DNA of 64,000 nucleotides. Source: Paracoccaceae bacterium. Its GTDB lineage: Bacteria > Pseudomonadota > Alphaproteobacteria > Rhodobacterales > Rhodobacteraceae. The notes below the pieces were generated by a model. It was not told the DNA's origin and made no database searches. It was given only the letters and a program-made list of their open reading frames with translations. This document shows positions 45,636 through 63,685 of the stretch, piece by piece (position 1 is the first letter of the stretch; each line of letters starts with the position of its first letter). The DNA lies in assembly GCA_033344815.1 (NCBI GenBank), contig JAWPMR010000001.1:2466136-2530135 (forward strand), written 5' to 3'. A program made the translations under genes and the position numbers.

Positions 45636-46535
45636 CTACTGGGACCGTATTGCGATCTTTGCGATCTGAGCCGCTTTTTCAACGTAAAGGGCAGCACGTG
45701 CAGGAGCGTATCGTGCGAAGAACGACAAAGGCTCAGGATGCCAATCAGTATCTATTCTATGCAGATCCGAAGCAGCGACTTCTGCCTCCACAAGTCGTTC
45801 GGGCAATAGGGCGACGCCCAGCCCCTCAAGCACCATCGGGACACAGGCCGACAATGCGCTGGAATGGACAATCCGTTCGCGGCGCAAGCCTTGCTTTGCA
45901 GCCAGATTATGAAGCGCAGCACAGGCTTGAGTGTGTTTTGCATGCGTTAGAACTGTCAGCTCAAAGAGCTCGGACAGGGTAGGCTCAGTGCTGACGTTTT
46001 GGATCAAATCAGTGTTCGCAACCCAACAGTAATGCTCTTGACCCAAAGTCTCGCTTGCGAAGGCTTTCGATTTGAACGGGCCCGTTTGAAGGGCCAAATC
46101 AAGCTGCCCTTCCATCAATCGTGCATCAATCGTTGTTGAAAGGTCGACCTCCAGCTGTATGCGCAGCTTTGGGTAGGCCTCTCTCATCAACCGCAAGAAA
46201 CTTTGCAACCAAGTGCAGGCCACAAGCTCTGTCACGCCCAGTCGAAGCGTTTCCTCAATCAGCTCCCGACGGCCAGCTTCCTCGATGAGCGCTTCTCCGG
46301 CCCACAACACTTCACGTGTTTTGTGAAGTAACCTCTCACCATTTACAGTCAAACGAACCGATCCGGCATCCCGTACCAACAACGTCTCATCAAGGGCGGA
46401 TTCAAGCGCAATGATCCGTGCTGAAATATTGGGTTGAGTGGTTCCAAGCGCAGACGCCGCAGCACGAAATGTGCCGGTATCGACGACAAAGGCAAACGCC
46501 TCCAGCTGTTTGAGAGTGATCTGACTTTTGATCAT
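45636..46535 (-). CDS. LysR-family transcriptional regulator
   Basis: 299 residues from ATG 46535. The N-terminal winged HTH is ITLKQLEAFAFVVDTGTFRA plus ASALGTTQPNISARIIALES (residues about 5-65). The rest is the periplasmic-binding-like effector domain (LRLGVTELVACTWLQSFLRL, MVLEGLGVALLPERLVEAEV). It is transcribed in the same direction as hyuA, 95 bp upstream, and is the probable regulator of that operon. Position suggests this; no LysR box was pinned down. Confidence 0.9.
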   Translation of the reverse strand: MIKSQITLKQLEAFAFVVDTGTFRAAASALGTTQPNISARIIALESALDETLLVRDAGSVRLTVNGERLLHKTREVLWAGEALIEEAGRRELIEETLRLGVTELVACTWLQSFLRLMREAYPKLRIQLEVDLSTTIDARLMEGQLDLALQTGPFKSKAFASETLGQEHYCWVANTDLIQNVSTEPTLSELFELTVLTHAKHTQACAALHNLAAKQGLRRERIVHSSALSACVPMVLEGLGVALLPERLVEAEVAASDLHRIDTDWHPEPLSFFARYAPARAALYVEKAAQIAKIAIRSQ

Positions 46536-46678
46536 TTTCGGCTCATGGATAGAAAATATTGATAGGCACGGTAGCTGTTCTTTTGAAGCGGACAAAGCTC
46601 TTTCGGAGCATTCACAGGTCTGACGTTAAAAAAATCCCCTACTTACTCCCAAGCGGGACGAAGCGCGCGAATGGCAGG

Positions 46679-46770
46679 TATCGCTGGTTCTGCCGCCTTG
46701 ATCTGACAGACCGCCTTCCAGATCATTCGACTTTTTCCAAGAATCGGCACGGTCGGTTCCGTGAGAGCGA
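46679..46770 (+). pseudogene. 92-bp fragment of the IS1182-type transposase
   Basis: Matches the pseudogene at 28829-28920 (YRWFCRLDLTDRLPDHSTFS region) with one difference seen. Both ends are abrupt. It is the first of several unrelated fragments joined here. Confidence 0.9.
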
Positions 46771-46876
46771 TCACCACTCTGTCATGATGCTCAATGCCGA
46801 TTGTAACGATGCCAACGTCATCAACGTGTTCGAGCCTGCGATCCTGCATATCGCGTCAGGCGACAGCGTCACTTTT
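46771..46876 (+). pseudogene. Internal fragment of a pseudoazurin-like cupredoxin gene
   Basis: Reads HHSVMMLNADCNDANVINVF followed by EPAILHIASGDSVTF. This is the first two strands of a type I copper protein of the pseudoazurin group (VxMLN...VFEPA...GDxVTF). The signal peptide and the copper-ligand C-terminus are absent. It is cut at both ends. Confidence 0.75.
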
Positions 46877-46989
46877 GGGCCGATCAAGGCGGTCAGTTTG
46901 CCGGGGCGTAGCGGTGCGACGCAAGCGCCCGTCAGGATGGCGCGCGACCCGTAGGCAAAGCTGAGGTCGGTAACTTGAAGCGCGTTCAT
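46873..46989 (-). pseudogene. N-terminal fragment of an iron-siderophore-type ABC ATPase
   Basis: About 38 codons from the ATG at 46989: NALQVTDLSFAYGSRAILTG then GKLTALIGP, ending just before the Walker A GxGKS/T would be completed. The ATG overlaps the permease stop (ATGA), the original operon arrangement of FecCD-type permease followed by ATPase. Confidence 0.8.
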
Positions 46990-47272
46990 TGCCAGTGCCT
47001 TTTTCGTTGGCTGAGGATCAGCGAGACAAAAAATGGAATGCCGATAAGCGAGGTAATCATGCCGATAGGATAGACGACGCCGGGGGTGATGGCCTTTGAG
47101 GCGATAGAGGTACCGCACAGGATCAGCGCACCGGCAAGGGCTGAGAGTGGCAGGAAGCCGCGCTGGTCTTCCCCGTCAAGCATCCGCGCGATATGTGGCC
47201 CCACAAGGCCCACGAAAGCGACGGCACCAACAAAGGACACAGCCGCGGCCGAGAGTAGTGAAACGCCAGCCG
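46986..47272 (-). pseudogene. C-terminal fragment of a FecCD-family iron permease
   Basis: About 95 residues: LLSAAAVSFVGAVAFVGLVG, PHIARMLDGEDQRGFLPLSA, and IGMITSLIGIPFFVSLI at the natural end. Full members are about 330 residues, so roughly 70 percent is lost. Its 5' side abuts an IS3-type fragment at about 47273. Confidence 0.85.
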
Positions 47273-47274
47273 GC

Positions 47275-47496
47275 AACCGCCAGCGCTACCACGAGAGCCT
47301 GAATAACGTCACGCCGGCCGATGCCTACTTCAGGCGTTACAAAGCCATTATAAAACAATGGGAAAGGATCAAAAGGAAGACGCTCGGAACGCGCCACTTG
47401 CATCACATCCAGCGCGCCGCATAATCAAACCAACAAGATGGGCTGAACTCTCCCTTAGTTTAGACTGCCATTGGTGCCAAAAATTCTAACGACGAG
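47275..47496 (+). mobile_element. 3' fragment of an IS related to the 1543-bp element
   Basis: Encodes the OrfB end NRQRYHESLNNVTPADAYFR through KRKTLGTRHLHHIQRAA, clearly similar but not identical to the intact copies. The terminal region GGTGCCAAAAATTCTAACGACGAG matches the intact IS end (GGTGCCAAAAACCCTGACGACGGACA). It is therefore an older, diverged relative. Confidence 0.85.
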
Positions 47497-47504
47497 CAGG
47501 CCGC

Positions 47505-47639
47505 ACGTTTCCAAGTGCCAATCCGGGTTGGGTGAACACCGTATTGCGTGGGCTACTCCGTCAGGCTTATCTCCTCGCGAAACGCTTCAAGTGAAACTTG
47601 GGCTTTGAACTCAGGAGAATGGATCTTTCGTTTCTTCAT
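47505..47639 (-). pseudogene. OrfA N-terminal fragment of a different IS3-family element
   Basis: From ATG 47639: KKRKIHSPEFKAQVSLEAFR then EEISLTE, a stop, and PTQYGVHPTRIGTW in frame. This is the standard start of an IS3-type OrfA with an in-frame stop. It borders the flagellar cluster, 33 bp from the end of its last gene. Confidence 0.8.
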
Positions 47640-47671
47640 CGCAGATCACTTCTCTCGTCAGGCAGTCGACC

Positions 47672-48136
47672 TTAACGTTTGACCCTTACGTCAGCGAGCA
47701 CTTCGGTATTGAAAGTGTCCAAACTCTGTCGTTGGGAAAAGATTTGGGACTCGATTGCTTCCCCCAGCGCTAAATCGTTGAGCGCTTTCCTGTCCCGGTC
47801 CGACAGGTCTTCAATCAGACGTTCTGCAGCAATGACTTTTCCATATGCTTGCCGAACTTGACGAATATGCTGTTCCTTTTCTGCCAAAACCAACGCCAAT
47901 TTGGTATTCAGGGAAGCCTTTGCTCTGCCCACCCATCGCTTCCAAATGACATCGGCACCAATTGATTGCATGGATGGGACTACTGATTGGCGGGCAGTTT
48001 GAGCCTGTATATCAATGCGTCGTAATTCAGAGCGCAGGTCGTTTTCTTTCGCAACTATAGTTTGAAAAGCTTGTCGCCTGACTTCATACTTTGCTTCAAC
48101 AAGCGCGCTGATTTCCTTTAAGTCTTTCAGATTCAT
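47672..48136 (-). CDS. Coiled-coil protein of the flagellar cluster (possibly FliJ-like)
   Basis: 154 residues, almost entirely charged helix (EISALVEAKYEVRRQAFQTI, RLIEDLSDRDRKALNDLALG). No membrane segment or signal peptide. The start overlaps the flhB stop by one base (TGATG), so it belongs to the flhA-fliR-flhB operon. Size and coiled-coil character resemble the export chaperone FliJ, but sequence alone does not prove it. Its 3' end lies 33 bp from IS3 debris, so the native C-terminus may have been altered. Confidence 0.75.
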   Translation of the reverse strand: MNLKDLKEISALVEAKYEVRRQAFQTIVAKENDLRSELRRIDIQAQTARQSVVPSMQSIGADVIWKRWVGRAKASLNTKLALVLAEKEQHIRQVRQAYGKVIAAERLIEDLSDRDRKALNDLALGEAIESQIFSQRQSLDTFNTEVLADVRVKR

Positions 48137-49212
48137 CAGATTCTACCCTTTGCTTTGTTACGCATTGTTTCGGCAAACCGAATAGCGGCCGCTACGGCAC
48201 GATAGTGGTCAGGCGAAATCTGTTCGCCAATGTCCGTAGTCGCGTGGATCGCGCGTGCCGTTGGCGGATCGCTATGGATTGGTACGTCACTTTCATTTGC
48301 AATTTCTCTGATACGCAATGCTATTTCATCCAAACCTTTGGCCACACATACAGGCGCTTGACCAGGTTTTCGATCCCATTTGAGCGCAACTGCGTAATGT
48401 GTAGGATTGACGATAATGACATCCGCCGAATGTACTTCAGACATCATTTGAGCGCTGGCGATAGCATGAGCGCGCTGTCGGCGCTCTTGCTTCATATGAG
48501 GGTCGCCTTCGTTGTTTTTTGTCTCATCCATGATTTCTTTGCGAGACATCATGTTTTTTCTCAGGTGCTCAAAATGCTGCCAAATGGCATCGATGAAACC
48601 AATCACGCCAGAAACAACAACTACCACCAAAAGAAACTTGAGGCAGATCTCTGCAAGCAAAGTAACGACAATGCGCGGATTGGTCTGCAGGACAGCGACC
48701 ATCTCGTCAAGGCGAGCATTTATGAATAAGGCGAGGCACGCAGAATAAATCAATAGCTTTGAAAAACTTACGGCAAACTGGAAAAGGCCGGTACGACCAT
48801 ATTTGTTCTTGGCATTTGAAATTATTGAAATTTTCGATATTTTAGGCGCGATTTTATTTGGCGCAAAGACGATACCCTTCAGCGCGAGCAAACAAAGGAT
48901 AACGGCCAGTGAAGGCAAAAGAAACAGCGGCGAAATAGACCAGGCAACAGCGCGAATTAGCCCTTGAGTCGGCGCAGCGGCAGCACCATCAAAGAATAAG
49001 GGAGCCAACTGCGCTGATTGTTCAATCAGCACCATCATTGAGGTGCCCAGCAGGGTCAATCCGCTACTGCCCGCAACCAAAAAAGCTATCAGCAGACCAG
49101 AGTACGCGCATGCCGTCAGCAGTTCAGTCGAGCGAGCAAACTCACCTTTCTTACGAGCTTCAAGAAGCTTCTGAGGCGTGGCATCGTATGTCTTGTCACC
49201 TTCCTCGCTCAC
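48136..49212 (-). CDS. flhB: Flagellar export apparatus protein FlhB
   Basis: 358 residues: four membrane spans in the first about 210 residues, then the cytoplasmic switch domain. The autocleavage motif NPTH is in SADVIIVNPTHYAVALKW near residue 270. FlhB controls the change of export substrate from rod/hook to filament. The N-terminus has the typical DKTYDATPQKLLEARKKGEF. It overlaps fliR by 4 bp and precedes a coiled-coil gene. Confidence 0.96.
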   Translation of the reverse strand: MSEEGDKTYDATPQKLLEARKKGEFARSTELLTACAYSGLLIAFLVAGSSGLTLLGTSMMVLIEQSAQLAPLFFDGAAAAPTQGLIRAVAWSISPLFLLPSLAVILCLLALKGIVFAPNKIAPKISKISIISNAKNKYGRTGLFQFAVSFSKLLIYSACLALFINARLDEMVAVLQTNPRIVVTLLAEICLKFLLVVVVVSGVIGFIDAIWQHFEHLRKNMMSRKEIMDETKNNEGDPHMKQERRQRAHAIASAQMMSEVHSADVIIVNPTHYAVALKWDRKPGQAPVCVAKGLDEIALRIREIANESDVPIHSDPPTARAIHATTDIGEQISPDHYRAVAAAIRFAETMRNKAKGRI

Positions 49213-49979
49213 GGCGTTGTCCCAAATGGATTTCTCAGGAAAACATCCATCGCATCTACCCAGACTGAGAGTATCAATGGAGCCGACATCAGCAACAAGA
49301 AGAGACCACCCGCTGTGATCAATGGAGCACCAACAAAAGCGACCATCAACTGCGGCATTGCTTTGTTTATAGCACCAAGAGCGAAATTATAGAGAACTGA
49401 GAGAATAACGAACGGCGCAGCAAGCGTGAACGCCAATGTGAATGCGCGAGCGACTTGTGCGACGCCCCAATCGGTGAGGACGGAGGCTTGCGTAAATCGA
49501 CCCATCGGCATGAATTCATAAGACAAGATTACCAGTTGCGCAGCCTTGACATGTAGGCCGGTCATCACTGCCAGAGCGAGGCCACCAACAATCAAAATGT
49601 AACCCATTGCCGGCATCGGATCGACTCCAGAGCCTCCAAAAACCTGAGAAAGCGAAGTTGCGTTAGCAGCAATTGTGCCCGCAGTCTGAAGCGCCAGAAC
49701 GAACAATCTGATCCCGATCCCAATCGCCAAACCCGACACTACTTCTGTAAAGATCAAAATTGACAGGTCACCGGTTCCTTGCGGGAAACCCACATTTGGC
49801 ACAGCTGGCGTAACGATGATCGTAAATGCCAAAGCTACCGCAAGTTTTATGCGGACCGGAACTGACTGTTCGCCAAATGCTGGTAGCATGGAGGCCAGTG
49901 CAGCAACGCGCAGAAAGACTAAAAAGCCATGCCAAATTGCGCTGTTCAGCAATGGGGCTAGTTCAGCCAGTGCTGTCAT
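49209..49979 (-). CDS. fliR: Flagellar export apparatus protein FliR
   Basis: 256 residues, about six membrane segments (FLVFLRVAALASMLPAFGEQ, LRL-type start). AGTIAANATSLSQVFGGSGV and PFVILSVLYNFALGAINKAM are typical FliR blocks. It forms the export gate with FliP and FliQ. Overlaps flhA and flhB by 4 bp. No fliQ is present in the window. Confidence 0.95.
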   Translation of the reverse strand: MTALAELAPLLNSAIWHGFLVFLRVAALASMLPAFGEQSVPVRIKLAVALAFTIIVTPAVPNVGFPQGTGDLSILIFTEVVSGLAIGIGIRLFVLALQTAGTIAANATSLSQVFGGSGVDPMPAMGYILIVGGLALAVMTGLHVKAAQLVILSYEFMPMGRFTQASVLTDWGVAQVARAFTLAFTLAAPFVILSVLYNFALGAINKAMPQLMVAFVGAPLITAGGLFLLLMSAPLILSVWVDAMDVFLRNPFGTTP

Positions 49980-52060
49980 GCAGCAACGACACCGACGAGG
50001 GATGGGCGCGCGTCCAAGCCTATTTCTTCAAAGGAAAGAACAGGGTTAGAAATTCCTTTTGCTCGCATCACAGTCCGCAAGAAACGCCGCCGGCGCGTAT
50101 TGGTCACAATGGCCGCATTAATCCCATCCTGATTTGCAGCGAGCAGTTTTTCTGACATATTTTCAGCCAACAAATTGAAAAGGTCAGGTGGCAACGCAAT
50201 GTCCAAGCCTCGATCAGCTTCGACTTGGTAGGTATTGAACGTGTCTTCCCACTCAGGTGCCAACTGAATGAGGGGGAGTGTTCCATCCTCGCGCTTCATA
50301 TCTGCAATCAATTGAAACCCAAGACGCTGGCGGACGTGCTCACAGATGGCCTCAGGTTGCGCATTGTGCGCCCGTGCTTCCGCTGTTGCTTCTAAGATAA
50401 GGGGTAAATTCCTGATAGAAACCTGTTCGTCCAAAAGCAAACGCAATACAGCATGCAAAACGTCAATCGGTACCTTGTCCGGGATCATTTCATCCAGCAG
50501 TTTTCGGTTGGCTTCAGCGCGCGCCGGTTCAGAAACGTTCACCATTTCGGAAAGCAAACGCCGTAGCGACTTGAGTGACAGCAGGCGACTGAAGTTGCGT
50601 TTGACAGTCTCCAGCAAGTGCGTGGCTAGGATTTCCGCGGGAGTCACCAACGTCAGCCCATCAAGAGCGGCACGTTCCTGATCCCGATTGTTAATCCATC
50701 TCGCGGGAGCGCCGTACACGGGTTCAGTAGTATCGACACCACCTGGTAGAGACATGGAGTCCTCCGGAACAAGGGCGAGTATTTGATCCGGGTTGAGTTG
50801 TGCGCGCGCCTGTTCCACGCCCTGAATTCGAATTACATAGGTCCCAACCGGCAAAACTGCGTTGTCCGTCAAGCGAATCTCCGGAAGGATCAAGCCAAAG
50901 ACTGAAGCGACATGCGTTCGCATATTCGATATTCGGGCATCCAAACCTGTTCCCGGATCTAGCACCATGTTGACCAAATCAGGCGCGAATTCTACATGGA
51001 TGTCATCGAGTTCCAAGATGTCTCCCAGAGACTTTTCTTTTGGAAGATCGGTAGTGACATCATCTTCAATCTTTTTGACCATCTTCGTCTTAACTTTTTT
51101 ATGCACCAGAAAGGCGACGAAACCCAATACTGCACCACCAAACAAAAAGGGCGCAAATGGCAAACCAGGGAACAGGGCAAACAAAATCATTAACCCAGAC
51201 ACGGTTGCTAGTGCGGAAGGGTGCTTACCTAGCTGACTAAACACCGCCAAGTCTGTAGCACCCTGTGCGCCGCCTCGTGCTAAAAGCAGGGCTGACGCAA
51301 TGGAGATAACCACGGCCGGGATCTGCGAAACAAGGCCATCTCCAACTGTCAGCATTGCGTAAGTTTCAAAAGCCTGTCCCAATGGCATACTATGAACTGC
51401 AACGCCCATGATTAGCCCTGCAACCAAGTTAAGCAACGTGATCAAAAGTCCAGCGACCGCATCGCCTTTTACAAATTTCGACGCACCATCCAATGACCCA
51501 AAAAACGTAGTTTCTTGTTGCTCTCTCTCACGCCGTTCTTTTGCTTCTGCATGCGTGATGGCTCCGGCCGACATGTCACTATCAATTGCGAGTTGTTTAC
51601 CGGGCATTCCGTCCAAAGCAAATCGAGCTCCAACCTCGGCCATTCTGGTCGCGCCCTTGGTAATGACCATAAAGTTAACGATCAGAAGTACGCAGAAGAC
51701 CACTAGGCCAAGAAAAACGCTTCCTCCCATTACAAACTGAGCGAAGCCCTCGATAACACCGCCGGCCGCATCAGTTCCGGTATGACCCTGGCCAATAATG
51801 AGTTTGGTTGATGAAACATTTAACGAAAGCCGCAGCATCAATGATGCCAGTAGGATCGTTGGAAATGCCGAAAAGTCCAATGGGCGTTCGATAAACAAAG
51901 TAATCGTAAAAATCAGAATTGCTAAGGCGAACGAAGCCGCCAACCCAATGTCCAAAATCCAAGATGGCATAGGCAAAATCATCATCACAATTACGGCCAT
52001 CAATGCAACCGCAAGCATAATCGTTGGATTGAAAAACGCGTTTATAGCAATCTTCTGCAT
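49976..52060 (-). CDS. flhA: Flagellar export gate protein FlhA
   Basis: 694 residues, the normal FlhA length. The N-terminal half has about eight membrane spans and the FHIPEP signature region (TILLASLMLRLSLNVSSTKL). A cytoplasmic loop contains GMPGKQLAIDSDMSAGAITH, and the C-terminal domain binds export chaperones. It forms the proton-driven export channel ring. It lies 5 bp after the lytic transglycosylase gene and overlaps fliR. Confidence 0.97.
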   Translation of the reverse strand: MQKIAINAFFNPTIMLAVALMAVIVMMILPMPSWILDIGLAASFALAILIFTITLFIERPLDFSAFPTILLASLMLRLSLNVSSTKLIIGQGHTGTDAAGGVIEGFAQFVMGGSVFLGLVVFCVLLIVNFMVITKGATRMAEVGARFALDGMPGKQLAIDSDMSAGAITHAEAKERREREQQETTFFGSLDGASKFVKGDAVAGLLITLLNLVAGLIMGVAVHSMPLGQAFETYAMLTVGDGLVSQIPAVVISIASALLLARGGAQGATDLAVFSQLGKHPSALATVSGLMILFALFPGLPFAPFLFGGAVLGFVAFLVHKKVKTKMVKKIEDDVTTDLPKEKSLGDILELDDIHVEFAPDLVNMVLDPGTGLDARISNMRTHVASVFGLILPEIRLTDNAVLPVGTYVIRIQGVEQARAQLNPDQILALVPEDSMSLPGGVDTTEPVYGAPARWINNRDQERAALDGLTLVTPAEILATHLLETVKRNFSRLLSLKSLRRLLSEMVNVSEPARAEANRKLLDEMIPDKVPIDVLHAVLRLLLDEQVSIRNLPLILEATAEARAHNAQPEAICEHVRQRLGFQLIADMKREDGTLPLIQLAPEWEDTFNTYQVEADRGLDIALPPDLFNLLAENMSEKLLAANQDGINAAIVTNTRRRRFLRTVMRAKGISNPVLSFEEIGLDARPSLVGVVAA

Positions 52061-52065
52061 TCCCT

Positions 52066-52776
52066 TTAATTTCCACTTCTTGAGACGAGGCTGCGCCTGT
52101 TTAAATTATCGTTTAATGGGACCAACGACCCACGCACTGGCCGCACGCTAGATTGTTGTAAAAGAGGGAACTGGTTTGCTTCTTGAATGCGCGCGCCTTT
52201 TTGCACAAACGACGGCAACTCATTCTGAAGATTTGCGTATATAGCAGAATATTTACTTTTGTACCGCTCTGAGATTTCGGTCGTTCTAGAATGGAATGCG
52301 CCAACGGCATCTGTCCAATCACCCTCTTCTAGGAAAAGTTGCGACAAAAACTCTGCCGCGTACTTAGCGTTTGTAAAGGGGTCGAACATGTCAGAAATTG
52401 AAGAAAAGGCGTCTCCATGCCAACGATAGTTCAATTGGAAACACCCTATATCAATATTCCTAATTCCATCGCTAACCTTTTCTTTTGCAACCCTTTCGGC
52501 TTCAGATCGGCTAGAAAGCCAAGCTCCTTGACCGCCTACATTAATTGACCAAGGCCACGGCTCCAAGCCGGCGCCGAGTGATCGCCCGGTTTCTGTTCGG
52601 GTAACAGCCAGCAACACCGAAAGTGGAACACTTGTTTCGTGCGAGGCAATCACAGCGGCTTGATCACACACATTTCCACTTGAAGGTGTAGCGTGTAGTC
52701 TAACAGCACCAAAAAGTAGGAAGAGCACAGCTATGAAGAATAATGCGGCCAGATCAATTGCTCTACAAAACGGCAT
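52066..52776 (-). CDS. Flagellar-cluster lytic transglycosylase (SltF-like)
   Basis: 236 residues with an N-terminal signal or anchor (AALFFIAVLFLLFGAVRLHA). The SLT domain has ASHETSVPLSVLLAVTRTET with the catalytic Glu, then NIDIGCFQLNYRWHG. Such enzymes cut peptidoglycan so the rod can pass; Rhodobacter SltF is the known flagellar example. Position directly before flhA in the same operon supports this role. Confidence 0.88.
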   Translation of the reverse strand: MPFCRAIDLAALFFIAVLFLLFGAVRLHATPSSGNVCDQAAVIASHETSVPLSVLLAVTRTETGRSLGAGLEPWPWSINVGGQGAWLSSRSEAERVAKEKVSDGIRNIDIGCFQLNYRWHGDAFSSISDMFDPFTNAKYAAEFLSQLFLEEGDWTDAVGAFHSRTTEISERYKSKYSAIYANLQNELPSFVQKGARIQEANQFPLLQQSSVRPVRGSLVPLNDNLNRRSLVSRSGN

Positions 52777-52879
52777 TCAAAACCTTCATCAACTGTTTTC
52801 TACAGTCATTTGAAGTTATCCGATCAAGGTTTATTTTGAGTAACTACTATTCTCAAAATAAAATTTCTTTATCAACGGT

Positions 52880-55141
52880 TCATTGTGAAGTGACTACCAA
52901 ATCTCTTAGAAGGTCAGCGACTATGGTTCTTGCTGAAGCGCTTTCATCCAAAGCATTCTGGGTTGCAGAGATCATTCCATCCTCAATTATTACTGGATCC
53001 ACAGAGCCATTTGCCAGTTCGCGTATGTCTTCGAATGTATTAGACTGTTGTGAAACCAGTTCCACCCAATCATCAGATAGCCAAGCAGCACGTTTCGCCG
53101 TTTCCGACATGTTCGCAGCCTGAAAAAGCTGGATTGCACGGGCGTTTTCCCCAATCCTAAAGAGTGCTTGCGCGCGAATTAAGTCTGCTTCTTGCCCAAG
53201 GGTAGATTGCAGTATCTCCAGCGCCTCTGTTGGCTTGTCCAAGGCGAGTAAGACCTCAGCTTCTAAAAGTATAGCTTGCAAGTTTCTCTCAGTGTTATCT
53301 ATGTCCGCCAATATGTCTGCTGCTGCACTCGCAAAACCCAGCGAGTTCATTCTCTTTGCAATAGCCAAAGCGGATAACGGCCGAATTGACCTGCTATTCT
53401 CTGGGAAATAGCCGAACGCGATATCCAAAAATTCTACATCGCTAGCATTTTTTGCCAAGACGGAGAAGACAGACGATCGCAAATCATCTAACGACTCCGC
53501 GTTCTGATAGAATTGATCTTTCTCGATAACATCAAAGGCCTTTTTAAATTGTCCGGACAACGCAGAAGCGATCGCGTGCGCGCGTGACAACTCGGGCGCA
53601 ATTCTACTGTCTTGAAGTTCGAAAGCATACGCTTCTATCAAGAGAGAGGTATCTGGGTCGATAGGTGTCAGGTCAGCCAGTCTGTTTTCAACGTACAAAA
53701 GTAAAGCTTCCGGTGAATCGATACTGTTTGCGTTTGAAACGTTAGACAAAATCCTAGCCGCAGATGCATTATTGCTAGAATTTTGTTGAATATAGGCAGA
53801 GGCTAGTTCGGTGCTTGGTGCACTTTGATTGGCATCCAGATTGACCCGGCGAAGAGCAACCGACGCCGCCTCTGTCTTTCCAATTTCCGCGAGTCGCTTG
53901 CTTAAAATTGGTGCAAGATAGTCTCTCAATTGTGGAGGCAGTTTTACAAGCGCGCGAAGCGCTGCGCGATCGTCCGCAACTTGATCCTTGGAGAAGGTTC
54001 TCGCAGCGAGGATGCCCCACAAGGCTAAATCAGACGCGCAGTCAGCAAAATGATGAACAATCCGCGGATTTCGGACGAATCCAATGTCTACTATATCCGC
54101 TAAGTCCATAAGTTCAGGGTTTTCCAAAACTAATTTGTCGGACAACCGCAACGTTTGCTTCGCTTCTACACCAAAACCGAAAAAAATGTATGCTCGGGCT
54201 AAGTCAATGGCTACTTTTTCGTCCAACCGGCCAAGTTCGGAAAACAGAGACTGCCTAAGCAAGGAGATTTGGCTGTGGAATTTGGTCTCATCGCCCCAAT
54301 TCGGAACATTGACCGAGATAGGGTCTGCGCAAACAACCCCGGATGTCGTCAGGTCGACTGTGTCGACCCGCCGGGGAACATCACGACTATTTGTAATCCT
54401 CAGATTAACGATTTCGTTAAATGTGGGCGAAACCATCTGATCAGATGAATCAAAAATAACGATTCCTGGCTCAGGCATTTCTTGTTTTACCGCCGCATCT
54501 AGGCTCGGTACTGATGGCTCAACCAAACCGCGCGAAGTTGCGTCTACAACACTTCTCAACAATTCTTGACGGGTAGTTTCTACGGTGCCGATTTCCTGAG
54601 AAGATAAACTTGAAACCGGAGCGGAGCCACTTTCTGACTCAGGGCTTTGTTGCTCTTGCGTCAAAAGAAACTGGTCGTCATCGCTGGTCGCGCTTGGCCA
54701 AAGCAATTCACCAAAAGCAAAATTTGATTGCGCCTTGAGGCTCTTGTAAGAGCCCTGTGTGGTAAGCGCATTTTTTGATAAAGGCGGGCCGTCCAGAATA
54801 TCGATAACCAGAAAACTGCCTTTTTCGACGAAGAATTTCGTATCACAATCACACGAAAGTTCTAATTCGAGACGTGAGGGATACGTTTTTATTTCTTTTA
54901 GGTAGTCTCTCGGTATCAGGTTAAAAACGCGGCTGATATCGAAGCCGTCTTCATGGCCTAAAAACGAAATCACTTGGCTACCGGGTTGACCAGAGACTTC
55001 CCACTGCACTTCCGAAGGAAGCCGCATAACCAATCTTGTGAAGCCGGTATGATCACCAGATCTTACGCTGATTGGATCAGCTAGTGCAAAATTGCTCACC
55101 ACACAAGCCAAGAGCCAAAAAACTATGAACTGCTTCTTCAT
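52880..55141 (-). CDS. Large periplasmic repeat protein of the flagellar motor region
   Basis: 753 residues from ATG 55141, starting with a clear signal peptide (KKQFIVFWLLACVVSNFALA). Residues about 20-120 form a beta-rich AMIN-like domain (TGFTRLVMRLPSEVQWEVSG). From about 300 on there are TPR-like helical pairs (RAYIFFGFGVEAKQTLRLSD, AQALFRIGENARAIQLFQAA). I do not recognise a named family. The start overlaps the motA stop by 4 bp. That position suggests a periplasmic partner of the stator, comparable in idea to rhizobial MotC, but no homology is claimed. Confidence 0.8.
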   Translation of the reverse strand: MKKQFIVFWLLACVVSNFALADPISVRSGDHTGFTRLVMRLPSEVQWEVSGQPGSQVISFLGHEDGFDISRVFNLIPRDYLKEIKTYPSRLELELSCDCDTKFFVEKGSFLVIDILDGPPLSKNALTTQGSYKSLKAQSNFAFGELLWPSATSDDDQFLLTQEQQSPESESGSAPVSSLSSQEIGTVETTRQELLRSVVDATSRGLVEPSVPSLDAAVKQEMPEPGIVIFDSSDQMVSPTFNEIVNLRITNSRDVPRRVDTVDLTTSGVVCADPISVNVPNWGDETKFHSQISLLRQSLFSELGRLDEKVAIDLARAYIFFGFGVEAKQTLRLSDKLVLENPELMDLADIVDIGFVRNPRIVHHFADCASDLALWGILAARTFSKDQVADDRAALRALVKLPPQLRDYLAPILSKRLAEIGKTEAASVALRRVNLDANQSAPSTELASAYIQQNSSNNASAARILSNVSNANSIDSPEALLLYVENRLADLTPIDPDTSLLIEAYAFELQDSRIAPELSRAHAIASALSGQFKKAFDVIEKDQFYQNAESLDDLRSSVFSVLAKNASDVEFLDIAFGYFPENSRSIRPLSALAIAKRMNSLGFASAAADILADIDNTERNLQAILLEAEVLLALDKPTEALEILQSTLGQEADLIRAQALFRIGENARAIQLFQAANMSETAKRAAWLSDDWVELVSQQSNTFEDIRELANGSVDPVIIEDGMISATQNALDESASARTIVADLLRDLVVTSQ

Positions 55142-56007
55142 GCGGCAGCCTGTTTTACCGACTTTAGAGCCTCTTCCAGCTCCGAAAAACTGGGACGACA
55201 ATGAGAAGGCGTATTTTGACGACCGACTTCAATACAAATGTTCGTTGCATGCGCGTGGAGGTTAGCAACCAAAACTTCTCGTATCAGTTGATAGAAATGG
55301 CCATCTTCTTCGGTTACCGTTTTTACTTTTGCAGCAAACGGGCCAACAAATCCGTACGCTAAAAACACGCCTAGGAAAGTTCCCACCAAAGCACCGCCGA
55401 TGAGTTTTCCAAGCACTTCAGGCGGCTGGTCGATAGAACCCATCGTCTTGATAATGCCCAAAACAGCGGCCACAATACCTAGAGCAGGCAAACCATCTGC
55501 TACTGTCTGGAGGGCATGACTTGAATGAAGTGCGTGATGCATGTTTGCTTCCATGCGTTTCTCCAAGACTTCTTCAACTTGATGAGGATCGTCGTAATTC
55601 ATAGAAGCAGATCGCATCGTATCGCAGATGAGCGCTACAGCTTCCCCATCATTCAGAATTTTAGGATATTTGGTAAATATATCAGAATCTTGTGGTGCTT
55701 CGATATGTTCTTCAATGGAAACCGGATTTTGCCTGGCAAGACGGATCAGTTCAAAGAGCAGACATAGCAAATCGCGATAGTCATCGTGCGCCCACTTTGG
55801 ACCTTTGAACACTCGGCCCATGTCTTTAGCTGTTTGCTTAACGGCCGACATACTGTTGCTTATGAGAAATGCGCCGACGGCAGCACCACCTATCATAGTC
55901 ATTTCAAAAGGTAAGGCCTTGATGATGATGCCCATTTTGCCACCCGCAGCAAGATAGCCACCGAACACCATAACAAACACGACAATTATTCCAACGAATC
56001 CGATCAT
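55138..56007 (-). CDS. motA: Flagellar motor stator protein MotA
   Basis: 289 residues with four membrane spans. Family features are the N-terminal GYLAAGGKMGIIIKALPFEM, the cytoplasmic loop with HALQTVADGLPALGIVAAVL and the conserved ALVGTFLGVFLAYGFVGPFA. MotA with MotB conducts ions and turns the rotor. No motB gene follows; the periplasmic repeat protein occupies that place, so motB must lie elsewhere. Confidence 0.96.
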   Translation of the reverse strand: MIGFVGIIVVFVMVFGGYLAAGGKMGIIIKALPFEMTMIGGAAVGAFLISNSMSAVKQTAKDMGRVFKGPKWAHDDYRDLLCLLFELIRLARQNPVSIEEHIEAPQDSDIFTKYPKILNDGEAVALICDTMRSASMNYDDPHQVEEVLEKRMEANMHHALHSSHALQTVADGLPALGIVAAVLGIIKTMGSIDQPPEVLGKLIGGALVGTFLGVFLAYGFVGPFAAKVKTVTEEDGHFYQLIREVLVANLHAHATNICIEVGRQNTPSHCRPSFSELEEALKSVKQAAA

Positions 56008-56073
56008 GTTTTTCCCCGGTTCAAATTACATCCGCATGTTCGCAAAAGGAGGTTAAAAAAACATCAGCAACTA

Positions 56074-56688
56074 CTAGCCTTTCGGAACGTCCGCATTTCG
56101 GCCGGCCAAAATAACGCTAATTGAATAGGCGACCTGAGGTGAAAGGCCTGCCAAGATTCCCGCTGCAGCATCAGGTTTCATACGTCCCAAGAAACCAGCC
56201 GCAAATGCGGGTTCCATTTGCTCAAAAAGCGGTGCTGCTTCTTTCGGTTTCATATTTTCATACACTGTTGTTAGTCTGGCCAGGTCATCTTCGGCAGCAG
56301 TGTTTGCTAAAGCGAGCAAGCCTCTAAGGGAGCTTTCAGCGTCCTCCAATATGACAAGCCTTTTCTCGATTTGTTCATCAGCGACACTCAAAGCCTTCAT
56401 GCGCATAGCAATCTGTTCTTCTTTTTTGACGAGCCTCGCTTCGCGTTCTTGAAAAGAGATCAGCATTTTAGACATTTTTGTTCTATCATCACCCGACAGA
56501 GAAATGGCTGTCTCTGAATCAGTGGGAGCCATTTGTGTATCAGCGGCAGGCAACAATGGATTTTCTGTTGCTACGGCCTGACCAGCGCCAGCACCGATGC
56601 GAACAACAGCGGAACCGACCAGCAATCCCGCTATTAGGATGATAGAACCGCGACCGTTTCGCGCCAGAAAAGCTCTTTTGGTTTTCAT
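56074..56688 (-). CDS. MotE-like protein (MgtE-N-like flagellar protein)
   Basis: 204 residues: one N-terminal membrane anchor (GSIILIAGLLVGSAVVRIGA), a long coiled coil around residues 70-120, then an MgtE-N/FliG-like helical end (YENMKPKEAAPLFEQMEPAF, AAGFLGRMKPDAAAGILAGL). This layout is that of MotE-type proteins in alphaproteobacterial flagellar loci, thought to assist stator assembly. Overlaps the upstream 129-residue gene by 4 bp. Confidence 0.85.
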   Translation of the reverse strand: MKTKRAFLARNGRGSIILIAGLLVGSAVVRIGAGAGQAVATENPLLPAADTQMAPTDSETAISLSGDDRTKMSKMLISFQEREARLVKKEEQIAMRMKALSVADEQIEKRLVILEDAESSLRGLLALANTAAEDDLARLTTVYENMKPKEAAPLFEQMEPAFAAGFLGRMKPDAAAGILAGLSPQVAYSISVILAGRNADVPKG

Positions 56689-57074
56689 TGGTGTGTCTCC
56701 GCAGTCCGGTGTCGAACAAACATCGGTTCACTTGTTGTAGGTGGAGGAGTCGAAGCCGCGCGTTCTGGTGCCGTTTCAACCGAAACTTGTTCCGGAATGT
56801 CGTGCAATGACGCCATTTGTAGCTCAAGTTTCCGCGACATATCTTCTGCCCTGTCCGTAAGACTTGTCAGAGTCTCTGCGGAACCTGCCGCAGTATTTTG
56901 GGCGGACGACAACGTTTTTGTTAGATCATCGACTTGCGCCGAAAGGACTGCTACGGCGCCGCCGACTCCTTTCTCAAGATCGTTAAATCGGTTCAACCGG
57001 CGACCCAAGACGAAGCAGTAAACACCTGCGCCCAAGGCTCCAGCAGCCAAAAATATATCTGCAATAAGGTCCAT
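56685..57074 (-). CDS. Small membrane-anchored coiled-coil protein in the flagellar operon
   Basis: 129 residues with one N-terminal membrane segment (IFLAAGALGAGVYCFVLGRR), a coiled coil around residues 45-90 (LTSLTDRAEDMSRKLELQMA) and a proline-rich tail. No family recognised. It sits between fliL (9 bp) and the MotE-like gene (4-bp overlap), so a motor-related role is likely from position only. Confidence 0.75.
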   Translation of the reverse strand: MDLIADIFLAAGALGAGVYCFVLGRRLNRFNDLEKGVGGAVAVLSAQVDDLTKTLSSAQNTAAGSAETLTSLTDRAEDMSRKLELQMASLHDIPEQVSVETAPERAASTPPPTTSEPMFVRHRTAETHQ

Positions 57075-57083
57075 TTGACCCTC

Positions 57084-57569
57084 CTAGTTCAGTACAAATT
57101 CCATGATGAGAAGATCATTGACATGATTGCGGCCTGTTGCGACCTGTACGCGGCGCAGCATTTGTGCGCGAAGGCGTGCCAAAGAAGATGGATCCTGAAT
57201 GTCTCTCACTTCTATTGCTCGCAAATAAGTGTTCAGAACATCAACTACTCTAGGTATGTTTTGCTCTACTTCTGCGGCATGCTCAGGCGATACCTCTAGC
57301 TGAGCGCGAAACCGCAAGTGCTTTTGCTGACTGTGTTGTGGAAGAGAAACTGTAATCGGTTCAAGCGGGATAAAAGTAGTTATCGCCTGGGGGTCTCTTT
57401 CTTCTTCGACGTCTGCCACATCAACCGATTCGCTGCTCAAAATCATGCCACTCCACGTCGTGTAGAATCCTGCACCAGCCCCTAGCAGAAGCAGTACAAT
57501 CCCAACAATTAAGGGCATTTTAGACGATTTTGGTTCGTCTGTTGGTTCGATTGCCGATGCGTCCGCCAT
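57084..57569 (-). CDS. fliL: Flagellar basal body-associated protein FliL (copy 1)
   Basis: 161 residues: a membrane anchor (LIVGIVLLLLGAGAGFYTTW), then a periplasmic stomatin-like domain (FIPLEPITVSLPQHSQQKHL, LRAQMLRRVQVATGRNHVND). FliL surrounds the stator and supports torque. First gene of the minus-strand fliL-orf129-motE-like-motA row, divergent from fliF. A second FliL-like gene lies at 63155. Confidence 0.93.
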   Translation of the reverse strand: MADASAIEPTDEPKSSKMPLIVGIVLLLLGAGAGFYTTWSGMILSSESVDVADVEEERDPQAITTFIPLEPITVSLPQHSQQKHLRFRAQLEVSPEHAAEVEQNIPRVVDVLNTYLRAIEVRDIQDPSSLARLRAQMLRRVQVATGRNHVNDLLIMEFVLN

Positions 57570-57667
57570 GCTTTTTCCATCTGCTGTTGTGAAATTTCTT
57601 ATAGACGCGATTGCACTAACCGATTGTTAAGCCAGTTCGTTCATTGCTGTTGCCATCACCGAATAGA
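57570..57667. promoter_or_regulatory. Divergent fliL/fliF intergenic region
   Basis: 98 bp separate the fliL and fliF starts, so the promoters of the two flagellar operons must lie here or overlap the coding ends. No box could be assigned by eye with confidence. Confidence 0.4.
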
Positions 57668-59317
57668 ATGTTCGGTTTGACGGAGGTGATTGTGCAGCAA
57701 TTGTTAAACGCGTGGACCGGCCTAGAACTGCGCCGACAAATCATTGTGATTGTAGCTACCGGTGCGATGTTTTTTGGAATCCTGGCGATGACCAGAATGG
57801 CTTCGGCACCGTCCATGACACTGCTTTATTCAGGTTTGGAAAACGGTGCCGCTGGAGATGTTGTGCGTTCACTGGAGCAACGTGGGGCCATGTTTGAAGT
57901 GCGTGGCGGGTCCATTTTTGTGTCCTCGAAAGACAGAGATCAATTGAGGATGACTCTGGCCAGCGAAGGCCTTCCGGAGAATTCGAATCGCGGCTACGAA
58001 CTGCTCGACACATTGTCGGGTTTCGGGACCACTTCTCAGATGTTTGACGCCGCGTATTGGCGTGCAAAAGAGGGCGAACTGGCCCGAACGATTGTATCCA
58101 GTCCACATATTTCCATGGCCAGAGTACATATCGCCAGTACCGGTTCAAACCCGTTTCAACGCGGCGTAACACCAAAAGCTTCCGTAGCCGTGACCCCATC
58201 GGGACCGGCAATTACAAGTCAGCAAGCTAAAGCAATCCGATTTCTGGTGTCTTCCGCCGTAGCAGGTTTGGCATCAGAAGATGTCGCCGTAATTGATGCA
58301 AATGGTTCATTAGTTGGTGCTTCCGATGAGGCGGCGCCATCCAATGGAGGCGATGACAAGGCGCAGCTCCTCAAAGACAAAGTTCAGAGGCTTTTGGAAG
58401 CAAGAGTCGGATTTGGCAATGCAGTCGTTGAGGTCAGCGTAGACACGGTGAATGAAAGCGAAGCCATCAGAGAGCGTTCCTTTGATCCCGAAAGTCGCGT
58501 TGCGATCAGCACTGACACCGAAGAAAGAACCAACTCATCTAATGAAGCTGGAGGAGGGGATGTAACCGTTGCCTCGAACCTTCCTGACGAAGAAGGCGGT
58601 GCGGGGGAAAATTCATCCTCTCAAAATAGTGAAAGCCGTGAGCGAATTAATTACGAGGTGTCAGAAACAGAACGCGAAATATTGCGTAGTCCTGGGGCGA
58701 TAAAACGGCTGACTGTCGCCGTGTTGGTAAATGAAGCACAAATTACTTCAGAAAATGGTGATCAGACGTTCGCGCCTCGAGAGGAAGCTGAACTGGAAGC
58801 ACTAAGAGACCTCGTTTCATCCGCAGTTGGTTTTGACGAGGCGCGGGGTGACATCATCACGATAAAATCGATGGCGCTTCAAAGCGTTTCTCCACAAGGC
58901 ACCGCCGCGAGCACATCATTTTTTGATGTACTCAGTATTGATCTGATGTCCGCAATTCAAATGGCAGTACTCGCCGCCGTCACACTAATTCTGGGTTTGT
59001 TCGTGGTACGACCGTTGCTCATGAAACCAGAACAGATAGCCGAAACATCTGCACCCGCGTTGCTAGAATCCGGCGATCCAAACACAGAGGAAGCGGGTCT
59101 GACAGGCGAAGTTACTCCAGAAGATTTCGATATGCCGGAGTTGCCAATAATTTCTGGCTTTGGCGGCGATGAGATGGGTGGGTTGCCTGATCTGAATATG
59201 GCTGGTGGTGTTTCCGACGATCCAGTGGATCGATTGCGCAATATGATTGGTGAACGTCAAGAAGAAACAGTTGAAATTTTGCGCGGTTGGCTTGAAGACA
59301 AGGAGGAAAAAGTCTGA
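57668..59317 (+). CDS. fliF: Flagellar MS-ring protein FliF
   Basis: 549 residues from ATG 57668. N-terminal membrane span (QIIVIVATGAMFFGILAMTR), then the ring-building motifs (DRDQLRMTLASEGLPENSNR, ARVHIASTGSNPFQRG, KASVAVTPSGPAITSQQAKA). The second membrane span is near residues 422-445 (AIQMAVLAAVTLILGLFVVR). The acidic C-terminus ending VEILRGWLED is the FliG-binding part. FliF is the platform of the basal body. It starts the fliF-fliH-fliN-fliP row; no fliG is in the window. Confidence 0.96.
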   Translation: MFGLTEVIVQQLLNAWTGLELRRQIIVIVATGAMFFGILAMTRMASAPSMTLLYSGLENGAAGDVVRSLEQRGAMFEVRGGSIFVSSKDRDQLRMTLASEGLPENSNRGYELLDTLSGFGTTSQMFDAAYWRAKEGELARTIVSSPHISMARVHIASTGSNPFQRGVTPKASVAVTPSGPAITSQQAKAIRFLVSSAVAGLASEDVAVIDANGSLVGASDEAAPSNGGDDKAQLLKDKVQRLLEARVGFGNAVVEVSVDTVNESEAIRERSFDPESRVAISTDTEERTNSSNEAGGGDVTVASNLPDEEGGAGENSSSQNSESRERINYEVSETEREILRSPGAIKRLTVAVLVNEAQITSENGDQTFAPREEAELEALRDLVSSAVGFDEARGDIITIKSMALQSVSPQGTAASTSFFDVLSIDLMSAIQMAVLAAVTLILGLFVVRPLLMKPEQIAETSAPALLESGDPNTEEAGLTGEVTPEDFDMPELPIISGFGGDEMGGLPDLNMAGGVSDDPVDRLRNMIGERQEETVEILRGWLEDKEEKV

Positions 59318-59916
59318 TGTCCTTAGCTCATAGATACCGAAATTTCGGCGACGTTAAGGAAGAACCGGCGACCAACGAAAGTTTGCTTGCCGAGGGAATA
59401 GAAGACCAAAAATTGCAGTCATTCGAAGAAGGTTATCAAGCTGGATGGGACGACGCAGTGAAGGCCCAAACCGACGCTACAATGAAAGTCAGCACAGAAT
59501 TTGGTCAAAACCTGCAGGACATGTCTTTTACCTACCATGAAGCTCTTTCAAAACTCACGCTTTCAATAGAACCAATGATGACGCAAATCGTGGATAGGCT
59601 TTTGCCTGCCGTTACCCGTCAAGCTGTTGGAGCGCACATAGCATCCGAACTGAATAACATGGTGAAAGCCGAAGCTGGCCAGCTCATCGAAATAGTCGTT
59701 GCACCAGAAAATGTCGAAACAGTCAAAGAGCTTGGCAAAAGTGGCCTGACTGAGGCATTTGAAATCATAGCAGAGCACTCCCTCGGCCAGGGCCAAGCGT
59801 ATGTTCGCATCGGTTCGGATGAAAAAAGTATTGACGTTGATTCAGTAGTCCTCGGGGTTTCCGAAGCTTTGACCGCATTTTTCCATGAAGCCAAACAGGA
59901 CCAAACAAATGAATGA
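59317..59916 (+). CDS. fliH: Flagellar assembly protein FliH
   Basis: 199 residues. The N-terminal part has SFEEGYQAGWDDAVKAQTDA with a GxxxG-like helix, and the end (TEAFEIIAEHSLGQGQAYVR) matches the FliH/HrpE globular end. FliH regulates the export ATPase FliI and links it to FliN, encoded next. Overlaps the fliF stop by one base and fliN by 8 bp. Confidence 0.88.
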   Translation: MSLAHRYRNFGDVKEEPATNESLLAEGIEDQKLQSFEEGYQAGWDDAVKAQTDATMKVSTEFGQNLQDMSFTYHEALSKLTLSIEPMMTQIVDRLLPAVTRQAVGAHIASELNNMVKAEAGQLIEIVVAPENVETVKELGKSGLTEAFEIIAEHSLGQGQAYVRIGSDEKSIDVDSVVLGVSEALTAFFHEAKQDQTNE

Positions 59917-60202
59917 TACAACTAACGACTTGAAACCCGCAAAAGATCGAGCCAACCCTTTCACATCAGTTCCAATTGAATTGACTGTGTGCGTTGGCAA
60001 GGCGAGACCCCTAATAAGGGACCTGATTTCTCTGGGTGAGAATGCTGTTTTGCCACTGGACAGGTCTGTGGATGACCCTGTGGATCTTTATGTTGGCGAT
60101 AGGTTAATTGCCCGCGGCGTGTTAGAAGAAAGCGAAGACGAGAAAAACAAACAACTAGTCGTTCGTCTTACAGAGATCGTTGATCTGCAAGCGAGCCTCT
60201 GA
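59909..60202 (+). CDS. fliN: Flagellar switch protein FliN
   Basis: 97 residues from ATG 59909; mainly a SpoA/surface-presentation domain: SVPIELTVCVGKARPLIRDL, then VLPLDRSVDDPVDLYVGDRL and IARG. FliN forms most of the C-ring and docks FliH. The C-terminus LTEIVDLQ is the family's last strand. Confidence 0.92.
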   Translation: MNDTTNDLKPAKDRANPFTSVPIELTVCVGKARPLIRDLISLGENAVLPLDRSVDDPVDLYVGDRLIARGVLEESEDEKNKQLVVRLTEIVDLQASL

Positions 60203-60208
60203 TCAAAA

Positions 60209-60943
60209 ATGTTGACCCGTGTTCTATTTGCAATCTCGATAGTGTTTGTTTTGAGCTTTCCGGCTGAGGTCAGAGCTCAAGACTTATCATTTTCGTTAGG
60301 GGACGGCGACTCAATCAGCGCACGCACGATTCAACTCTTTGTACTTATCACGGTTCTAAGCTTAGCACCCGGTTTGGCGATTATGGTAACTTGTTTTCCA
60401 TTTATCGTAACGGTGCTCTCAATTTTGCGGCAAGCAATCGGACTCCAACAGTCCCCGCCAAACATGCTGATCGTAAGCCTGGCTTTGTTTCTCACCTTCT
60501 TTGTCATGGAACCAGTTTTTGTAGACGCATGGACAAATGGTATTGTGCCGTTGAATGATGAAATAATAGATATTGAGACTGCATTCGTCCGCACTGTTGA
60601 GCCATTTCGAATTTTTATGGCCGCTCGAATAGATTCAGAAACCTTTTTTGCCATGGCGGAATTGCGACCGGACACGATTGACACAAGTCTGTCGCCAGAA
60701 GCTCCACTATCCGTTCTAGTTCCAAGTTTCCTACTTTCGGAAATATCTCGAGCATTTCAAATTGGCTTTCTGGTTTTTCTACCTTTTTTGATAATTGACC
60801 TAGTTGTTGCCGCTGTTCTTATGTCAATGGGCATGATGATGGTGCCACCAGTAATTGTGTCGCTACCTTTTAAGTTGGCGTTTTTTGTAATCGCCGATGG
60901 TTGGAGCCTTATCGCCGGCAGCTTGGTAAAGAGCTACTTCTAG
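60209..60943 (+). CDS. fliP: Flagellar export apparatus protein FliP
   Basis: 244 residues with a cleavable signal peptide (LFAISIVFVLSFPAEVRAQD). FliP blocks: LFVLITVLSLAPGLAIMVTC, FIVTVLSILRQAIGLQQSPP, PSFLLSEISRAFQIGFLVFL and LVVAAVLMSMGMMMVPP. It forms the export gate with FliQ and FliR. Starts 6 bp after fliN; last gene before the IS-rich junction. Confidence 0.96.
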   Translation: MLTRVLFAISIVFVLSFPAEVRAQDLSFSLGDGDSISARTIQLFVLITVLSLAPGLAIMVTCFPFIVTVLSILRQAIGLQQSPPNMLIVSLALFLTFFVMEPVFVDAWTNGIVPLNDEIIDIETAFVRTVEPFRIFMAARIDSETFFAMAELRPDTIDTSLSPEAPLSVLVPSFLLSEISRAFQIGFLVFLPFLIIDLVVAAVLMSMGMMMVPPVIVSLPFKLAFFVIADGWSLIAGSLVKSYF

Positions 60944-63673: not shown

Positions 63674-63685
63674 GTCCACATTCTC

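Follow-up and report, generated by a model that had tools for sequence, protein, structure and literature searches.

A 1.1-kb bed of broken genes and insertion sequences at one end of a flagellar gene block in a Roseobacter genome

Background

Nested and truncated copies of insertion sequences (IS), lying among the debris of pseudogenes, are well known from the breakpoints of bacterial chromosome rearrangements, where they form what may be called IS graveyards. The locus described here, a genuine assemblage of gene and transposon fragments occupying approximately 1.1 kb of a Roseobacter genome, resembles them in its nested insertion, its truncated IS ends, its gene remnants and the inversion adjacent to it. 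It departs from them in that most of its steps can be tied to a parent sequence, and in that one segment appears to have been copied away before the next insertion took place. It is a well-documented case, ordinary in kind, and not a new kind of system.

The intact FecCD-pseudoazurin operon found in related genomes shares with the bed both its sequence and the order fecD-fecE, and the pseudoazurin piece of the bed is closest to that operon's own; by comparison, the bed keeps 96 permease codons, the first ATPase codons and a flipped piece of pseudoazurin. As for the flagellar genes next to the bed, Roseobacter sp. WL0113 (G007, flagellar locus L167) has the same block inverted between fliL and flgI, but its junctions do not match the bed and its flgI is still adjacent. 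Our literature search found no paper combining "pseudoazurin" with "FecCD", and nothing on the bed locus; passages of PMC9409073 place pseudoazurin in the context of denitrification in Paracoccus, and PMC12363192 reports more frequent rearrangements in a different flagellar segment, flbT to flgD.

The genome (coded G000) is a single contig of 5.08 Mb, of which we analysed a window of 64,000 nucleotides (bases 2466136-2530135). Its assignment to Roseobacter rests on named matches to its flagellar FlhA. It was compared with 18 genus relatives (codes within G001 and up) and with a family set of 295 genomes, our own included.

Results

Composition and limits of the bed

The features of the bed and its surroundings are given in Table 1. 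Read from left to right, the bed consists of the start of a putative phage-type integrase gene, a scrap of an IS1182-type element, a piece of pseudoazurin, a fecE-fecD piece, and the ends of two IS3-type elements, designated IS3-B and IS3-A. DNA searches of the same genome and of the genus relatives matched every named piece to a longer parent, and chance is excluded for the larger pieces (E = 9e-86 for the IS3-A end in its own genome; E = 7e-85 for fecE-fecD in G013), the 31-bp integrase piece being weaker (E = 8e-7, own-genome search).

A first-pass annotation, made from the letters of the window, had described six unrelated fragments between 46596 and 47660. All six are indeed present, each with a longer parent, and the IS1182 scrap has the claimed length of 92 bp (46679-46770, with a DUF772 hit). 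However, they trace to four sources, namely the two IS3-type elements (IS3-B with its end, IS3-A with its start), the IS1182-type scrap and the remnant of a single operon. They are not unrelated, since three of the six derive from that operon, FecE and FecD forming a single piece. The integrase start (46649-46680) is a seventh piece, absent from that list. Of the proposed extent, 46596-46648 matches nothing, and the bed continues for approximately 46 bp beyond the right-hand limit, where it enters the last codons of the flagellar gene. On its left, the bed is bordered by a LysR regulator gene whose nearest genus match is 58%, in G011, and which adjoins two genes resembling caprolactamase subunits (scores below the model cut-offs).

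Table 1. Features of the bed, of the flagellar block and of a parent sequence in the window
Feature	Position	Strand	Evidence or remark
LysR-type regulator	45636..46541	-	Pfam LysR_substrate and HTH_1; upstream side borders the bed; start 46541 chosen by hand, mechanical ORF extends to 46595
Stretch between LysR gene and first fragment	46596..46648		No match in own-genome and genus DNA searches
Integrase gene start, phage-type, 31-32 bp	46649..46680	-	97% over 31 bp to G000:C1:3761918; 91% to 1769967
IS1182-type (DUF772) transposase, internal piece	46679..46770	+	1 difference in 92 bp from window 28826-28917
Pseudoazurin, N-terminal part	46764/46780..46875	+	Protein match to G015; DNA matches to G008, G010, G013 and G015
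ABC ATPase start (FecE-type)	46874..46989	-	Unbroken with fecD in matches to G002, G013 and G016
FecCD permease end, last 96 codons	46986..47284	-	Pfam FecCD profile 227-310, E = 2e-22
IS3-B right end, cut inside orfB	47281..47498	+	82% to seven near-identical same-genome copies; end within ~2 bp
IS3-A left end: terminal end and orfA start	47499..~47706	-	Within 482-bp match to G000:C1:4430389-4430870
FliJ-like flagellar gene adjoining flhB	47672..48136	-	Conserved in genus relatives
Flagellar block fliJ-like..flhB-fliR-flhA..motA..fliF..fliP	47672..60943		Inverted relative to fliL-flgH, by gene order
IS3 orfB 3' end remnant beside fliP	61095..61330	-	Extent by eye; 61223-61317 matches G003 IS3 region
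IS3-B, full-length copy between fliP and fliL	61417..62959	+	99.9% to copy L004 over 1543 bp
fliL	63155..63679	-	Faces fliJ-like gene in relatives; flgH follows at window edge
Closest parent of IS1182 fragment	28826..28917	+	Inside left-truncated IS1182 copy starting at 28690

The IS1182 scrap and the integrase start

The reading frame carrying the IS1182 fragment scored 37.6 bits with DUF772 (cut-off 23.1; E = 2.3e-9), a domain that we take to mark IS1182-type elements, and a longer copy at 28643-29431 scored 87.8 bits. The fragment comprises 92 internal bp with neither terminal inverted repeats nor a complete frame; it is a dead remnant and not an element. Its closest parent, 18 kb away in the same window, belongs to a left-truncated copy that abuts an IS3-B copy at 27140-28683; the idea that the IS1182 copy at 28690 had been split by this adjacent IS3-B was rejected, as no left half was found in the window, and we call the copy truncated. 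Separately, the same 641 bp of an IS1182 element occur at two loci (L011 1154-1794 and L012 1301-1941), 99.8% identical and with different sequence following, so that a truncated part has perhaps moved as such.

The 31-bp integrase piece is too short for a domain test. In its parent at 1769967 (L011) the gene is spread over two overlapping frames, the one with the matching start having no Pfam hit over the cut-off and the following one (L011 427-849) matching Pfam Phage_integrase. At that locus an IS1182 copy has the integrase start just upstream of it, the order and orientation of the two matching those in the bed.

A remnant of an uptake operon

In eight of the 18 relatives (G002, G008, G010 and G012-G016), a binding protein, a FecCD permease and pseudoazurin are encoded consecutively and on the same strand. 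In G015 the frame of an ATPase is visible between the latter two; G002, G013 and G016 match the ATPase start, and for the other four operon-bearing relatives its presence is deduced from the spacing. Judged on this basis, the operon order kept in these 8 of 18 Roseobacter relatives is binding protein, FecCD permease, ATPase and, as the last gene, pseudoazurin. This conserved arrangement, in which a blue copper protein ends an uptake operon, is seen at L055 (7265-10772) and in relatives, and on plasmids (H1-H8 and H21-H28); permease, ATPase and pseudoazurin genes occur together on plasmids of Phaeobacter gallaeciensis and Tateyamaria omphalii.

In the bed, the start of fecE and the end of fecD (46874-47284, minus strand) form one unbroken match at 73-77% identity to three genus relatives (G002, G013 and G016). 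The fecD part scored 80.1 bits with Pfam FecCD over profile positions 227-310 of 311, and only the last 96 codons remain, compared with approximately 350 residues in the complete permease; the 72-residue frame of the fecE piece gave no Pfam hit. An extension of the FecCD match to 47375-47381 was not counted, as it runs over the antisense strand of the IS3 end and is interrupted by three stops. The pseudoazurin fragment matches the G015 protein at 68% over 38 residues (32-69), and it is this intact parent, not the fragment, that passes TIGR02375 (130.4 bits; cut-off 109.85). Covering query residues 32-69 of 157, the fragment does not include the copper ligands, which presumably lie after the N-terminal part kept here. 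Against the arrangement in all 8 operons, it is reversed relative to fecE; the simplest account would be that a local segment turned round between points inside fecE and pseudoazurin, and that the remainder was then lost.

The bed was thus rightly read as recording a former FecCD-type uptake operon, of the iron-uptake type, and a copper protein, the operon being intact in 8 of the 18 relatives. A search for its missing parts elsewhere in the genome, as the first-pass annotation had advised, found none: no binding protein of the operon type was found in the genome, the fragment was the sole pseudoazurin match, and the sole strong FecCD match was again the fragment (85 bits, against 44 for the next). 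Other genomes, too, are without such a permease: five relatives (G003, G004, G006, G009 and G011) have no FecCD match above 46 bits; in the sister genome, G003, the binding protein was likewise not found. In none of the 8 operon-bearing relatives does the operon lie beside the flagellar genes, the two being on different contigs in 7 and 1.7-2.4 Mb apart on one contig in G002.

Over 93 codons, the fecD fragment differs from G013 at 3, 4 and 44 sites in codon positions 1, 2 and 3, respectively, and 88 of 93 residues are identical. It shows 4 unique residues and 14 unique synonymous third positions; the corresponding figures for intact fecD are 3 and 8 in G016, 3 and 6 in G002, 6 and 8 in G014, 1 and 14 in G015, and 0 and 5 in G013, and the genes of G008, G010 and G012 have 0 unique residues and 0-1 unique synonymous sites, these three being near-identical to each other, which hides unique changes. 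The piece still carries the signature of purifying selection, and because its differences fall in this way over the codon positions and its unique residues are few, its death looks recent relative to the split from its relatives. In the fecD tree the fragment groups with G016 (0.92) and G013 stands next to both (0.83), whereas in a tree built from three flagellar proteins (16 genomes, of which 13 are among the 19 of the genus and three are others) G016 is next to the pair G000 and G003 (0.93) and G013 is placed elsewhere. That the fragment groups with G016, the neighbour of G000 and G003 in the flagellar tree, suggests that fecD was inherited rather than freshly imported; given the differing position of G013 in the two trees, inheritance need not have been purely vertical.

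Two IS3-type elements and a distant copy

The genome carries seven copies of IS3-B. Six show 99.7-99.9% identity to the remaining one over approximately 1.54 kb, which points to recent spread; the bed fragment, at 82%, is a diverged relative of this recently spread element. Two of the seven copies lie in the window (27140-28683 and 61417-62959). The class assignment rests on NCBIfam transpos_IS3 (189.6 bits against a cut-off of 160, for the copy at 27218-28240), the IS481 model scoring higher on the same copy (215.5) but below its own cut-off of 224; the 52-residue IS3-B fragment of the bed had no Pfam hit over the cut-off. IS3-A is placed in the family more tentatively. It is homologous to multi-copy elements of G003 and 74-78% identical to copies in G003 and G009; the start of its orfB matches HTH_21 below the Pfam threshold and the 28-residue start of its orfA has no Pfam hit.

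The intact copies put the end of IS3-B at 47498 (within ~2 bp). From 47499 onwards, 482 bp recur 1.9 Mb away, at G000:C1:4430389-4430870. The two sequences differ at 4 positions, of which three fall in the IS and one close to the final base of the match, with no change between them; so few differences likewise make the decay look recent. At the distant place IS3-A runs uninterrupted through orfA into orfB, and at the DNA level the copied segment extends over roughly the 102 final codons of the gene beside flhB (protein match: residues 51-154). Since the distant IS3-A is uninterrupted and the end of IS3-B abuts IS3-A in the bed, IS3-B would most simply have entered IS3-A after the copying. The copying probably went from the flagellar locus to the distant place, because only the flagellar copy of the gene is whole.

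The distant place (L002 1501-1982) is itself a second fossil bed, composed of an integrase fragment, some 600 bp of IS3-A and the flagellar gene end. Beyond the copied segment, one of its flanks holds a phage-integrase fragment, and the other a frame that we take to resemble phage-type lysozyme. In G003, L030 and L039 are two identical 610-bp IS3-A-like copies (four places match), one of which lies approximately 2 kb from the homologue of the window locus 41835-44085.

Read base by base, four junctions between the pieces show short stretches common to both parents: ~2 bp at integrase/IS1182, up to 10 bp with two mismatches at IS1182/pseudoazurin (against G008), 3 bp at pseudoazurin/fecE and 4 bp at fecD/IS3-B. 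Such overlaps of 2-10 bp would fit an origin by end joining, although chance matches are possible and the operon parents, 17-32% diverged, are too distant for proof of junction homology.

The order of the bed in other genomes

None of the 18 genus relatives joins two independent pieces as the bed does (23 candidates scored per genome). In the family set, 87 of 295 genomes gave matches at E<=1e-10, all to single pieces except for the locus itself, a weak negative as two candidates per genome were scored (the 294 other genomes include one genus relative); the longest overrun of the IS3-B end in this set was ~14 bp, in G067. None of the 1059 plasmid records with a match covers 80% of the stretch, and no phage record matches it. 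The possibility that the bed order is a conserved functional unit, which the first-pass annotation had named as the case that would overturn its reading, is therefore rejected, as this order was found in its own genome only by the genus, family, plasmid and phage searches. What did recur was the intact, co-directional fecD-fecE-pseudoazurin order, and not the truncated one.

An inverted flagellar block

In G006, G008 and G010, flgI is followed by the block from fliP to the fliJ-like gene and then by fliL and flgH, so that the fliJ-like gene faces fliL; G013 and G016 keep fliP to flgH in this order. The junction was examined in the named loci of the best 80 of at least 529 FlhA relatives, five of which are genomes also among the 18 genus relatives. 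fliL faces the fliJ-like gene in 72 of the 75 informative loci among these 80 (17 of the 72 were anchored on flhB, no fliJ-like gene having been detected there), the five uninformative ones (L175, L191, L196, L219 and L229) ending within 2.6 kb. The three exceptions are all named Roseobacter: L161 and L164 have no fliL in the following 7.7 kb, and in L167 the block is inverted. In other genera, the junction is intact in all informative loci among these 80. A match was obtained in 17 genus relatives: in 10 of them fliL or flgH lies within 1.5 kb, in G001 the flagellar order is intact with ~2.4 kb between, and in G002, G003, G005, G007, G014 and G015 the adjacency to fliL/flgH is not kept in the stretches seen. 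In G003, fliL is 370 kb from the fliJ-like gene.

In the window, it is fliP and not the fliJ-like gene that faces fliL, the 13-kb block from fliP to the fliJ-like gene being inverted, and therefore the bed forms the outer boundary of the inverted block. The bed had been placed at the boundary between a catabolic locus and the flagellar cluster; it does lie there, and to this we add that the boundary is an inversion breakpoint of the flagellar block. Between fliP and fliL, at the other boundary, lie a full-length IS3-B (61417-62959) and an IS3 orfB remnant (~61095-61330), of which 61223-61317 matches an IS3 region of G003 at 72% (E = 1.6e-5), and 52 aa tested gave no Pfam hit. As IS remnants are present at both boundaries, a role of IS elements in the inversion is likely, but the orientations of the IS3 remnants do not fit simple recombination between inverted copies. 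In particular, a model of inverted IS3-A copies was not supported, the remnant beside fliP being on the minus strand where the model expects plus.

Common descent of this inversion with that of WL0113 is unlikely: the flagellar tree makes G003 the sister of G000 and places G007 with G013. The inversion of G007 looks like a separate event, because G007 is not a close relative of our genome in that tree.

The flagellar supercluster is split (47672-63679 and G000:C1:2923881-2924972): a motB-flgE-flgK-flgL-flgI part lies about 400 kb away. Its flgI, 410 kb from the fliJ-like gene, has a short IS3-B-like match after it.

The end of the flagellar gene

The flagellar gene at 47672-48136, which we take to be FliJ-like from its position beside flhB, gave no Pfam hit over the cut-off and no NCBIfam hit. 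It was matched in 17 of the 18 genus relatives, with alignments that reach no further than residues 124-139 of 154. Along its outer 29 bp (47678-47706), IS3-A shares 14, 16 and 16 of 29 positions with related element ends in G003, G009 and G010, respectively, as many as are reached by 0.6%, 0.06% and 0.07% of the plus-strand 29-mers of the window. The last ~11 codons and the stop of the gene therefore probably come from the IS3-A end.

Discussion

We consider the bed to be a non-functional, IS-rich scar of deletion and inversion at the end of the flagellar block, with a probability of roughly 0.85 for this reading together with the steps proposed here. An uptake operon, probably inherited with the species, would have been cut down to ~400 bp of fecD-fecE and ~100 bp of pseudoazurin, the latter having been flipped by the local inversion with its ends inside fecE and pseudoazurin. 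IS3-A entered the extreme end of the gene next to flhB; the two abut, and the exact end is a matter of deduction. A segment of IS3-A together with the ~102 last flagellar codons was copied, probably from here to the place 1.9 Mb away, after which IS3-B went into IS3-A, as indicated by their abutment within ~2 bp and by the distant copy without IS3-B. Deletions brought fecD against the interior of IS3-B, and IS1182 against pseudoazurin on one side and the integrase start on the other, at the junctions described above. By gene order, the same flank is one boundary of the inversion from fliP to the fliJ-like gene, and IS elements probably had a role in the turning of the block. The order of several of these steps is not fixed by nesting, and deletion and inversion are linked by position only. 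The orientation of the IS3 remnants at the two boundaries, the placing of the operon away from the flagellar genes in the 8 relatives and the position of G013 in the fecD tree also speak against parts of this account. In outline, the view of the first-pass annotation that dead fragments had accumulated through several insertions and deletions holds.

Alternatively, the mosaic could have been assembled elsewhere, on a plasmid or an island, and have arrived as one unit by horizontal transfer. IS- and integrase-rich segments do travel, permease, ATPase and pseudoazurin are carried together by the Phaeobacter gallaeciensis and Tateyamaria omphalii plasmids, and G013 changes place between the fecD and flagellar trees. 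Yet none of the matching plasmid records covers 80% of the stretch, phage records do not match it, and the order was not found in the 18 genus relatives and the 294 family genomes (at most 23 and at most 2 candidates scored per genome); moreover, the partner of the fecD piece in its tree is G016, and the nearest matches of both the IS1182 and the IS3-A piece are in their own chromosome. We regard such an arrival as very improbable.

A functional bed, acting as the promoter of the LysR gene, as a small RNA or through a selected, IS-derived flagellar tail, appears very improbable to us. The LysR gene reads out of the bed, so that its putative promoter must lie in or beside it, and the flagellar gene probably takes its last ~11 codons and its stop from the IS3-A end; against this, the stretch matches no Rfam family at E<=0.5, the genes are cut short inside their frames and the order of the bed was not found elsewhere. 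Apart from a possible new tail of the flagellar protein, there is no sign of present function in the fragments. Finally, the joining of unrelated contig ends at repeats is extremely unlikely even if assemblies do fail at IS-rich junctions, because the genome is one contig and repeat collapse would not make these pieces, the IS pieces differing from all other copies in the genome (82% for IS3-B, 98% for IS3-A and 99% for IS1182) and the operon piece being found nowhere else in it.

Taken as a scar, the bed is an unusually readable record, within 1.1 kb, of a bacterial chromosome dismantling an operon. A FecCD uptake operon with pseudoazurin that 8 of 18 genus relatives keep has been lost in one lineage, and its loss leaves the genome without another strong FecCD permease match. 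Seen together are an operon remnant still marked by selection, a nested pair of IS elements, a segment copied after one insertion and before the next, and the border of an inverted block in a flagellar cluster whose order is kept intact by most of the related loci examined (the best 80 of at least 529).

More tentatively, and with considerable doubt, the ends of the block from fliP to the fliJ-like gene may be a recurrent, IS-fed inversion site in Roseobacter, of which the bed would be the debris, left at one end by repeated turning and trimming, with an IS-derived tail that is predicted to be still expressed. Pointing in this direction is the inversion of the same block, apparently independent, in another Roseobacter.
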